Of a stretch of DNA of 39,409 nucleotides, positions 16,066 to 19,076 are shown one piece after another; positions within the stretch are counted from its first letter, which is position 1; every line of letters begins with the position of its first letter. Source of the stretch: Haloferula sp. (lineage in GTDB: Bacteria > Verrucomicrobiota > Verrucomicrobiia > Verrucomicrobiales > Akkermansiaceae); assembly GCA_007126655.1 (NCBI GenBank), contig SLAV01000322.1, positions 1 to 39,409 on the forward strand, written 5' to 3'. The notes beneath the pieces were generated by a model, which was not told the DNA's origin, did not search any database, and saw only the letters and a program-made list of their open reading frames with translations. The translations under genes were made by a program, and so were the position numbers.

Positions 16066-17166
16066 TCAGGCGGCGCCATATCCGACGGCATCTTCGGCAA
16101 CCCAGCATTTTTGGTCGCCTCTCCATTCCTCGGTATCGGAAGAACCGCGCAAGACCTTCCCGAGTTCCGCCGCGACGACCGCCCCGAGCGCGGGTGGCAC
16201 GGAATTGCCTATCTGCCGGAATTTCGCGCACTGGCTGCCTGAAAACCTCATGCCAACGGGAAAACCCTGCAGGCAGGCGGCCTCTTCGACCGTCAAACGG
16301 CGGAGCCGTGGCGGCACTTCCGCAGCCGGACTCGCACCGGCGAGAAGACGCCCGTGATATCCGACCACCCAGGGCTTCGCGCTTCTCTTTTCCAATGCGA
16401 GCTGATCGATGATCGGCGTCCGGTTGCCTCCCATTGACGCGGGCAGGGTCAAGGCCGGGCCGTCGAGGTCGATCGGGCGCCCCTGGCCGTTGAAGAGCAT
16501 TCCCGCATACGGACTCTTCCGCAGGACCGGAAATCTCGCGGCGGTCACCTTTGCCTTGCAGACCGAGTCATTGCCGGGCGATCCATATGCCGGCAGGGCC
16601 GACAATGCCTCACGCACGGTCACCCGCTTTCCGCGGATCACGGGGCGGGTCACAACTCCGGATTTCGTGCCAATCAGGAACATCCGCTCCCTCAATTGCG
16701 GAACGCCGAAATCGGCGGCGTTCAATACCAGCACGCGACAACGGTATCCGAGGCTTTCCCCTTTTGCCTCAAGCGCGCTGATCATGCCCGACCACCGCGT
16801 GTTCATCGCGAGCGCCTTGACGTTCTCCATCACAAAAGCGGTGGGATCCAGCCTTTCGACGACACGGAAGAATTCCCAGACCTGTTTGCTGCGCGGGTCA
16901 TCGGGATCCATCCTTCCCGCCACCGAAAACCCCTGGCATGGCGGGCCGCCGATCACGACATCCGCCGAATTCCGCCCGGGAAGGTCCGCCTTGGCAATGT
17001 CGCCGCAGGATATCTCAGGAATCTCGTGTTTCCGCCGGACAAGCTCGTTTCCGTAGGTTTCCAGTGCGAATGAATCCATGTCGTTGGCCCAGATGGTCTT
17101 GAAGCCCGCTTCGGAAAACCCCAAGTCAAGGCCGCCGCATCCGGTGTAAAGTGACACACAATTCAT
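16066..17166 (-). CDS. DNA (cytosine-5) methyltransferase of a Type II restriction-modification system
   Basis: 366 residues. All key C5-methyltransferase motifs are present: motif I LYTGCGGLDLGF (residues 7-17), motif IV GGPPCQGFS with catalytic Cys77, motif VI MENVKAL (Glu114), motif VIII QLRERMFLIG, motif IX LTVEEAACLQGFP and motif X FRQIGNSVPPAL. It transfers a methyl group from S-adenosylmethionine to cytosine C5. The target-recognition region is short, about residues 170-285, containing NGQGRPIDLDGPALTLP; the recognition sequence cannot be inferred. It is divergent from a small regulator and the presumed nuclease, the classic layout of a controlled Type II system. A perfect -35 TTGACA lies upstream and the -10 ends six bases before ATG. 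Confidence 0.95.
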   Translation of the reverse strand: MNCVSLYTGCGGLDLGFSEAGFKTIWANDMDSFALETYGNELVRRKHEIPEISCGDIAKADLPGRNSADVVIGGPPCQGFSVAGRMDPDDPRSKQVWEFFRVVERLDPTAFVMENVKALAMNTRWSGMISALEAKGESLGYRCRVLVLNAADFGVPQLRERMFLIGTKSGVVTRPVIRGKRVTVREALSALPAYGSPGNDSVCKAKVTAARFPVLRKSPYAGMLFNGQGRPIDLDGPALTLPASMGGNRTPIIDQLALEKRSAKPWVVGYHGRLLAGASPAAEVPPRLRRLTVEEAACLQGFPVGMRFSGSQCAKFRQIGNSVPPALGAVVAAELGKVLRGSSDTEEWRGDQKCWVAEDAVGYGAA

Positions 17167-17172
17167 TATGCG

Positions 17173-17200
17173 AATTTGGCATGAGCCCGAATTTTGTCAA
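17173..17200 (-). promoter_or_regulatory. Candidate methyltransferase promoter with direct repeats
   Basis: Minus-strand TTGACA (17195-17200), 16-base spacer, CAAATT (17173-17178), six bases before the ATG at 17166. The heptamer CGAATTT occurs on the plus strand at 17171-17177 and 17189-17195, flanking GGCATGAGCC (17178-17187), so the promoter core sits between direct repeats. This is a plausible binding site for the adjacent XRE regulator. Confidence 0.45.
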
Positions 17201-17203
17201 CCC

Positions 17204-17476
17204 ATGATCGCGGATTTCTGGCAAGGTTGGTCCGTGTCCCGGAAAACGTTTGATGAGGAGTTGGGCCGGATTCTGGCGGGCCATCGCCGCAGTCTCGACA
17301 TGTCCCAGGAGTTTTTTTCTTCGTGCCTCGGAAGGGACCAGACCTATGTTTCCAAGGTGGAAACGGGCAAGCGCGCGATCACACTTCAGGAATTCCTCCG
17401 CTGGTGCGATGCCTTGAATCTCGACGACGCCGCGGTCATGGAGTTGTCCGCGAAAATGAAATCCCATGTTGAATAA
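17204..17476 (+). CDS. XRE-family regulator, probable restriction-modification controller (C) protein
   Basis: 90 residues from this ATG; an earlier ATG at 17168 would put the start inside the methyltransferase promoter, and a GTG at 17234 would give 80 residues and is equally possible. The helix-turn-helix runs from LGRILAGHRRSLDMSQEFF through RDQTYVSKVETGKRAITLQEF, a standard XRE/Cro-C1 fold, followed by a dimer helix region ALNLDD. Size, fold and position (divergent from the methyltransferase, upstream of and overlapping the presumed nuclease by 11 bases) match C proteins, which delay nuclease expression and repress the methyltransferase on entry into a new host. The role is inferred from context. 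Confidence 0.82.
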   Translation: MIADFWQGWSVSRKTFDEELGRILAGHRRSLDMSQEFFSSCLGRDQTYVSKVETGKRAITLQEFLRWCDALNLDDAAVMELSAKMKSHVE

Positions 17477-19076
17477 CCTGACACTCCTGCCGCTTGAGGA
17501 ATCGGAGCTGGCGGATGCCATCGACGTCGCTTTGGACGGATTGGAAAGCGCGGGGCTGTCCAAAGACGAAGCCCGTTTGAAATTGGAGTCGGCTTTCGGC
17601 GCATGGATCGAAGCGGAGGGTGAGGCTCCGGCATTGCCGGCCGAACTCCGGCCTCTGATCGCGAACGCCTCATGGGCGGCAAGAACGAGCAGGCCCGCGC
17701 ACACCGTGTATGTCGAATTGATCCGCAGGATTCAAGGGAGTTCCAGTGTGTCGCGACGCGCGGCGGTACTCCTGGCATCGCGCCTGCCGCTGGTGCTGCT
17801 TCTGGCTGGAGAGTCGCATTATTCACCTGCGGGAATCGCCCGTTTGATCGGCTCCAATGACGCGGGCGGCCAGGTGGGCTGGAAGGCGGTGCGGGCGATT
17901 CTGTCCCACTTCAGAATCAACCACGAATTGGAGGAGGGACCGGTCGCCGCCTTGCTCGGGGAGGACAGGCAATTGTCCGAGAAGGAATTCGGGGACGCGG
18001 ATTGCGCGACGACGGTGGAGTTGATTTCGGCCGGTGCCATGGCGTTCGGAATGGATGATGGGTTTCACCGCTCGCTGGCCAGACTCCTCGCCCCGGACGA
18101 CGGGCGGCCGTTCTTCCCGTATCTGCAAATGTTGATGTATGTAGCGGTAGTGGATCATTTTTACGATCATCCGTCGGAATACATCTACACCTTCAAACCG
18201 AGGGGGCGCGTCGCGGGTTTGATCTTCGGCAGTTTTCCATCCGGCCTGGCTCCGCGTGGCAACCCGATCCTCAACAACTTCAAGGCCGTGAACCGGCTTA
18301 CCCACGACTGGGCCGAATCCAGGGACGATAACCGCGAGCAGGCCGAAAGCCTGGTCAGGATCGTGCTCGGCCTGTCCTCACTGCCCTATCCGGCGAGGAA
18401 ACGCCTTTCCGCGATCATCCGGCGGGGCCTTTTCCGACTGATCGACATCAACACGCCGACGACCATCCATTGGCCGGACACCGGCGGACTCGCCGAAGTG
18501 GAGCGGTTTCTGGAAAACGTCTCGTCAGTTCCGACGAACACGCGCGGGATCATCGAGCAGCGGGTCACGGACTTTCTCGGCGCAATGGCACATCGAGGTC
18601 CGGATTGGCGGTCGAGGGGACTGGGTGATCCTGTCAATGCCAGCAATACGGCTTCCAGGAAACTCGGCGATTGTGATTTCCAACATGCGGGACGGCGCGA
18701 GTGTCACGCATATGAATCTCATGCGGGAAGGCTGACGGACGTCTATCTCAACGAACACACACGAACGTTGCGGCTCAACCTGCCGGCGCGGGAAGCCGAA
18801 TGGAATGCGATTTCAGACATTGGTGACTGGAGCATCGTAATCACCTTCATCGCTCACGAAGACGCGCGCTCCGCTGGGGACCAATCCATCACCACGGATG
18901 TTCCTTGCGAGCTTCGTGTGATGACCTTCGGCGAGGCGGTCACGGAAGTCATGGAGCGCGCGGTGGAAGACGAGGCATCCATGCTCGATCTTTTCCGCAG
19001 TCGCGTTCTTGCTCCACTCAATGCGGCGAACACACCACATTCCGTGAAGGAGAAGGCGCTCGAATTGCTCGGATGA
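17466..19076 (+). CDS. Presumed restriction endonuclease, family not recognised
   Basis: 536 residues, no family recognised. Function is inferred from its place: overlapped 11 bases by the XRE regulator, beside a C5 methyltransferase, and no other nuclease in the module. The N-terminal two thirds look helical. A nuclease-like core may lie at 390-435: VNASNTASRKLGDCDF (Asp402/Asp404), then a strand RECHAYESHAG (Glu412, Glu417, His419) and DVYLNEHTRTL. That spacing resembles a D...ExK core with His in place of Lys. A helix RGIIEQRVTDFLGAM precedes it. G+C looks lower than in neighbouring genes, in line with horizontal gain. Alternative: a non-nuclease accessory protein; a missing nuclease elsewhere cannot be excluded. 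Confidence 0.6.
   Translation: MLNNLTLLPLEESELADAIDVALDGLESAGLSKDEARLKLESAFGAWIEAEGEAPALPAELRPLIANASWAARTSRPAHTVYVELIRRIQGSSSVSRRAAVLLASRLPLVLLLAGESHYSPAGIARLIGSNDAGGQVGWKAVRAILSHFRINHELEEGPVAALLGEDRQLSEKEFGDADCATTVELISAGAMAFGMDDGFHRSLARLLAPDDGRPFFPYLQMLMYVAVVDHFYDHPSEYIYTFKPRGRVAGLIFGSFPSGLAPRGNPILNNFKAVNRLTHDWAESRDDNREQAESLVRIVLGLSSLPYPARKRLSAIIRRGLFRLIDINTPTTIHWPDTGGLAEVERFLENVSSVPTNTRGIIEQRVTDFLGAMAHRGPDWRSRGLGDPVNASNTASRKLGDCDFQHAGRRECHAYESHAGRLTDVYLNEHTRTLRLNLPAREAEWNAISDIGDWSIVITFIAHEDARSAGDQSITTDVPCELRVMTFGEAVTEVMERAVEDEASMLDLFRSRVLAPLNAANTPHSVKEKALELLG

Follow-up and report, generated by a model that had tools for sequence, protein, structure and literature searches.

A probable controller-regulated restriction-modification module from Haloferula with a proposed endonuclease resembling EcoT38I in predicted fold

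Type II restriction endonucleases often escape sequence search, and conserved gene order is therefore one way to find them. EcoT38I, an enzyme of this type with the specificity GRGCYC, is represented by a DNA-free structure (PDB 7e8r) and one with DNA (PDB 7edb), and its restriction-modification genes are reportedly carried by P2 phage, as the title of a 2003 paper by Kita has it. In PvuII and Esp1396I, the gene for a controller (C) protein lies before the endonuclease gene (R) and overlaps it. Passages of PMC4824078 describe the C gene as typically preceding R and sometimes overlapping it. Passages of the same source and of PMC3758141 describe C.PvuII-type operators as GACT-tat-AGTC pairs around a GT-centred spacer, and part of PMC5282649 describes direct-repeat C-protein sites in Mollicutes. 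Here, we analyse a locus of the PvuII and Esp1396I layout in a 39,409-nucleotide stretch of DNA from Haloferula sp. (assembly GCA_007126655.1, contig SLAV01000322.1, positions 1 to 39,409 of the forward strand; hereafter the window), part of a 4.14 Mb genome in 390 contigs. Positions 16066 to 19076 hold genes for a methyltransferase (M), an XRE-family protein (C) and a 536-residue protein (X). In our judgement, they very probably form a C-protein-regulated Type II restriction-modification module in which X is the endonuclease, with an EcoT38I-like core and ~150 extra N-terminal residues, and which was probably acquired horizontally. The module has the layout of an ordinary system and an unfamiliar enzyme.

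M (P0003; 16066..17166, minus strand) is an open gene of 366 residues, matching Pfam DNA_methylase in two stretches (4.2e-57) and PADLOC MTase_II (9.2e-67), which bears out its initial identification as a C5-cytosine DNA methyltransferase. One further C5 methyltransferase was found in the same genome (G000 C370:1459-2565, locus L052). Back to back with M lies C (P0002; 17168..17476, plus strand), the proposed controller, a 102-residue open reading frame (ORF) matching Pfam HTH_31/HTH_3 at 6.9e-08 and PADLOC Control_protein at 3.2e-07. By the ORF list, C overlaps X (P0001; 17466..19076, plus strand) by 11 bases, 17466-17476. The first-pass annotation, made from the letters alone, had described these three genes at these positions and had compared them with Type II systems that have C proteins; the ORFs are present as described, and the comparison gains from the relatives of X.

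Six further full-length X genes were found: in G037 (L004), Massilia timonae (L001), a Paracoccus conjugative plasmid (L003), an IMG/VR contig (L005), G829 (L011) and G1537 (L059). Pairwise identity among the seven, including the window X, is 25-56%. G037 is from the same taxonomic order as the window genome and its X is 42% identical to the window X; G829 and G1537 belong to the phylum of Massilia. A C5 methyltransferase gene adjoins X in all seven loci, although the window genome yielded just one such gene besides M; no full-length copy of X was found away from a gene of this kind. An XRE gene adjoins X in five of them (the window, G037, Paracoccus, IMG/VR and G1537), each time upstream of X and colinear with it, and M is divergent from C-X in all five. 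C and X overlap in four of these; in G1537 they do not if X starts at ATG 3327. The layout is not a matter of chance: four loci besides the window also have M divergent from C-X, with X proteins 26-42% identical to the window X. In the Massilia locus, M lies upstream on the same strand as X, and in G829 M and X are divergent. An eighth X, in G1497 (L060 3948-4181), is a fragment cut off by the end of its contig, and the genes just before it resemble, by eye, phage tail and baseplate genes; no methyltransferase was found in the 4 kb on its available side, the other side lying beyond the contig end.

The first-pass annotation recognised no family for X, and the libraries agree. X has no match at E<=1 in Pfam, PADLOC or NCBIfam, the last scanned with the window protein only. 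Six aligned X members, each searched at E<=10, gave just GyrB_insert (0.022) and PF0610-like_N (0.074) in Pfam, one member of six in each case, and no match in PADLOC. Among PDB sequences, none was matched by X alone or by six- and seven-row X profiles, and a C-terminal X profile gave one chance match, FolE2, at E 1.3. No non-nuclease family was matched in the libraries searched.

The interpretation of X as the endonuclease, put forward earlier from gene order, draws support from its methyltransferase neighbours and from its predicted fold. AlphaFold2 models were built from three sequences, both for full-length X and for the C-terminal domain, residues 345-536 (192 residues; 18498..19073). The domain model has a mean predicted local distance difference test (pLDDT) of 72.4 and a predicted template modelling score of 0.68. 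Its elements, in domain numbering, are a helix at 13-31, strands at 37-40, 60-63 and 68-79, a helix at 81-105 and a strand at 112-122. This is the element order of a PD-(D/E)XK nuclease core, predicted at about X residues 357-487. Among the first 20 Foldseek rows, endonucleases of restriction or viral type, McrC or EndoMS account for 10 and 12 in the two models; the rest are mixed and include RPB5, YqgP and HprK. Rows for INTS13/14, RPB5 and YqgP occur in the structural match lists. VIA, a re-alignment of the candidates that Foldseek supplies (355 and 857 chains for the two models), ranks EcoT38I first among solved structures for both. On the domain model, EcoT38I 7edb_A reaches Z 10.8 with a root-mean-square deviation (rmsd) of 3.7 over 163 residues, covering EcoT38I 178-350. 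On the full-length model, X residues 153-335 (17922..18470), a helical domain, align with EcoT38I 3-170 of 7e8r at Z 12.2 and rmsd 3.5 over 150 residues, and a second EcoT38I alignment reaches Z 12.3 with 285 residues over both domains, the next row being at 7.5. In VIA, coincidence can yield matches between helical parts with Z as high as about 13. We nevertheless accept the likeness because two domains agree on one protein. Both EcoT38I domain folds are most likely present in X and in the same order, as judged from models with pLDDT 58 and 72. The likeness lies at the level of predicted fold; sequence similarity between the two proteins is undetected.

At 536 residues, X is larger than is usual for a Type II enzyme, and the first-pass annotation had suggested that it may fuse a recognition domain. 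The extra length can now be placed at the N terminus: residues 1-152 (17466..17921), predicted helical with low confidence, precede the EcoT38I-like part, whose alignments start at model residue 143 or 153. Nt.BspD6I, MspJI and FokI, PD-(D/E)XK enzymes whose recognition part is separate, match the nuclease-domain fold at Z 6.2-7.8, which is below EcoT38I 7edb_A and confined to that domain of X. The unmatched N-terminal extension, the length of X, and the presence of MspJI, AspBHI and Shedu nuclease domains among the structural matches would also suit an effector of modification-linked defence, such as a nuclease that is abortive or depends on modification and is modulated by the methyltransferase, rather than a sequence-specific Type II enzyme. 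The best VIA match over both domains is, however, EcoT38I, a Type II enzyme, and X roughly tracks M in divergence, as described below. We therefore regard such an effector as very improbable and treat X as a probable Type II endonuclease.

A bridge to a smaller protein is provided by the Psychrobacter plasmid pA53P3, reached via M-like methyltransferases. This plasmid has a layout of M, C and a third gene, with an overlap of 8 bases, and its methyltransferase is 45.6% identical to M of the window. The third protein, P0021, is uncharacterised and 358 residues long, and a 94% identical copy is found on NZ_MN657032. P0021 and X are distantly homologous (blastp E 3e-4; hhalign probability 92.5 and E 5e-7 in one comparison, profile columns 241-424), and their region of similarity takes in the helical domain. 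The two proteins have in common the stretches PR...LN..K...W and G..SV..TN....K..D, followed by E. After this motif III Glu, P0021 continues I-T-V-K where X has x-H-x-G, and a gap opens in the alignment after E-I. X residue 236 aligns with P0021 residue 72, a difference of ~164 residues, and P0021 is without the N-terminal extension of X. Neither Pfam nor PADLOC yields a match to P0021 itself at E<=1, and its PDB matches are at chance level, the best at 0.22. The Acinetobacter plasmid pAS6-4 (L045 1905-3045) has the same arrangement, with the P0021-like gene split into two overlapping ORFs beside an open C and M. Two other candidates were set aside: an Acetobacter neighbour protein, P0022, is DUF7007, and a Sphingomonas protein, P0023, is PADLOC REase_II (3.9e-226), with undetectable kinship to X. 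At L050 79-2132, the partner of a methyltransferase of the M group (36% identical to P0003) belongs to another family, a PADLOC REase_II. Related methyltransferases may therefore serve endonucleases without detectable kinship.

Residues invariant in the seven X sequences include E364, Q365, R366, D402, E417, H419, T424, Y427, H431, R442 and H464. The acidic residues of PD-(D/E)XK motifs II and III, D402 and E417, are thus both present in every copy. According to our modeling, we propose that motif I is E364 in the first helix (codon 18555..18557, within the invariant E-Q-R), motif II is D402 (18669..18671; aligned with an Asp of P0021) and motif III is E417-x-H419 in the long strand (Glu417-Ser418-His419, 18714..18722), followed by the helix that holds R442. 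From the window alone, the active site had been placed at Asp402/Asp404, Glu412, Glu417 and His419. Asp402, Glu417 and His419 survive the comparison; Glu412 does not, its position being free across the seven (E,R,L,T,R,I,R), and position 404 is Asp or Glu (D,D,D,D,E,E,E). Lysine is normal at the motif III position of such enzymes. Since Glu417 and His419 are invariant in all seven, motif III reads E-x-H, and the earlier reading of D...E-x-H, with His in place of Lys, holds. The substitutes for this lysine named in part of a Type II review (PMC4081073) are E, Q and N. In passages of PMC551604 and PMC1913061, COG4636 and other PD-(D/E)XK families have their lysines moved or replaced. E-x-H is not named in the available portions of these three sources; the literature search was weak, its term also hitting 'exhibit', and we make no claim that the motif is unreported.

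Whether X founds an uncatalogued Type II endonuclease family, with an invariant catalytic His for the motif III Lys (D...E-x-H), an EcoT38I-like scaffold and an N-terminal domain with a possible contribution to specificity, appears to us evenly balanced. The main alternative keeps the same module and has the motif III lysine migrated, so that Arg442 of the following helix takes over its function and His419 has an auxiliary or structural role. Passages of PMC1913061 describe several PD-(D/E)XK families in which the lysine has moved to the motif IV helix, where it is frequently an Arg, and a motif III Lys that is often Thr in DUF1626. R442 is invariant in all seven X proteins, falls in the helix that follows motif III (domain-model residue 98, helix 81-105) and is aligned with an Arg in P0021, uncertainly because the alignment runs across a gap; P0021 reads E-I-T at motif III. 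His419, on the other hand, is equally invariant and sits two residues past Glu417 in the predicted long strand, which is the usual place of the lysine. We regard migration to Arg442 as possible but less likely than not.

The control region of the window has diverged from that of PvuII and Esp1396I, and so has its C protein. A search pattern for the C.PvuII-type C-box, written after the loci were seen, finds a box in three of the five loci that bear C: a perfect one in G1537 and in IMG/VR, and one with a single mismatch in Paracoccus. Each lies at the C start or immediately before it. With up to 3 mismatches, 0/200 shuffles of the G1537 locus and 1/200 of the Paracoccus locus match. The window and G037 have no such box at up to 3 mismatches, and no inverted repeat of at least 8 nt was found in 17130-17330. 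They have in common another conserved block, GGCATGAGCCC-x-AATTTTGTCAA, identified by pairwise DNA alignment between M and C (17161..17200, plus strand) and here taken as a candidate control region. The 14-mer CCGAATTTTGTCAA occurs exactly once in the window, inside this region. The pattern CCGAATTTTGTSAA has 3 window matches at <=2 mismatches against 0.45 expected, a number reached by 1/100 shuffles, and its sole exact match is in the candidate control region. G037 has two near-copies 22 bp apart. Because the block falls within the first 40 bases of the nominal C ORF and its conservation with G037 is of the kind expected for a control region, the true C start is probably downstream of 17168, at ATG 17204 or GTG 17234.

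These differences raise the question of what the XRE protein does. It might be a simple repressor or antitoxin-like regulator rather than a controller that sets timing as C.PvuII does: the Control_protein match of the window protein is weak and similar to its sub-cutoff couple_hipB match (1.7e-07, NCBIfam scan), that of G037 is weaker still (1.9e-05), and the C-box is missing from both loci. Same-layout relatives nevertheless have strong Control_protein matches together with C-boxes (Paracoccus 1.1e-16, IMG/VR 4.1e-20), G1537 has a C-box too, the position of C before and overlapping R is that of known C genes, and the window and G037 hold a different conserved block at the same place. On this evidence, a simple repressor seems unlikely to us, and we retain the reading of C as a controller.

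Few of the sampled genomes carry X. In partly overlapping samples, it was found in 2/59 relatives (the window genome and G037), 1/387 genomes of the window's phylum (its own), 2/398 of Massilia's phylum (Massilia and G829), 1/399 of Massilia's order (Massilia), 3/341 of G829's order (G829, G1537 and the G1497 fragment) and 1/229 of G037's order (G037). No phage searched carries X, one plasmid record does (Paracoccus), and one IMG/VR contig does; an IMG/VR search with P0004 as the query found none, nor were P0021 relatives found there. M, at E<=1e-40, occurs in one of 73 genus genomes, its own, and the NlpC-like gene next to the module is present in 69 of the 73. This patchy distribution suggests mobility. 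In addition, the module has 60.2% guanine plus cytosine (GC) against 65.0% for the window, and third-position GC is 0.72 in M and 0.71 in X against 0.76-0.87 in eight other window ORFs, which are unverified as genes. The patchy distribution and the lower GC fit acquisition, and the module was probably acquired horizontally. Three loci have recombinase genes near X, recognised by eye in G037 and G1537 and by annotation in Paracoccus. Besides this recombinase family protein, a HEPN-domain protein of the Swt1 family is annotated next to the Paracoccus module (L003 1092-3019). In G829 (L011 7004-9651), what by eye is a putative Gabija-like pair, a helicase resembling UvrD and a protein resembling TOPRIM, stands beside the X module, a possible defence island. 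The IMG/VR contig resembles, by eye, a P2-type prophage, comparable to the P2 phage setting of the EcoT38I genes; the G1497 fragment gives a second hint of X modules travelling in late regions of tailed phages.

The divergence of X follows that of M to some extent. A Mantel test of the two identity matrices gave r 0.572 (13/5040 permutations) with seven sequences, few for such a test, and a six-row version gave r 0.611 (17/720). Without Massilia, r rises to 0.897 (1/720 permutations), a row that was dropped after the matrix had been seen.

Several observations weigh against our reading of the locus, in addition to the missing C-box. The Massilia and G829 loci, two of the seven, show no XRE gene, as judged from ORF lists and not from a profile search. 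EcoT38I, like all PDB sequences, is not reached by the X profiles at E<=10, a divergence at which undetected does not mean excluded. The full-length model is weak (pLDDT 58.2), neither model has a Foldseek match at E<=0.001, and EcoT38I is absent from the best 50 rows of each and surfaced in VIA alone. DNA-free EcoT38I 7e8r reaches Z 8.0 on the domain, tied with the unrelated rows YqgP and MspJI at 7.8, and the Z 12.3 alignment has an rmsd of 19.5, that is, the two domains are placed differently. No empty insertion site could be demonstrated, and the EF-G-like flanking gene was not found in 29 other loci, taken with at most 1.5 kb on each side. Finally, Massilia is discordant, its X being 45.7% identical to the IMG/VR X and its M just 37.9% to the corresponding M. 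Since these identities disagree, sequence comparison suggests that the Massilia copy, which also shows no C gene, has exchanged its M partner (M at L001 4410-5396).

By analogy with C-regulated systems, the module would work as follows. On entry, M would be expressed first and would protect the host by methylating cytosine C5 in its DNA target. C would accumulate, bind between the divergent M and C-X and switch on C-X, so that X would appear after protection by M and would then cut unmodified DNA. For cleavage, two or three carboxylates (Glu364, Asp402 and Glu417) may hold the metal. His419, replacing the usual lysine, may position or deprotonate the water, or it may leave this job to another basic residue.

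The proposed enzyme family, which has no Pfam, NCBIfam or PADLOC match, spans two phyla, those of the window and of Massilia, as well as a plasmid and a prophage-like contig, and X may have a new recognition sequence. If E-x-H is catalytic, it lets one test the job of the motif III lysine, a necessary positive charge versus a possible general base.

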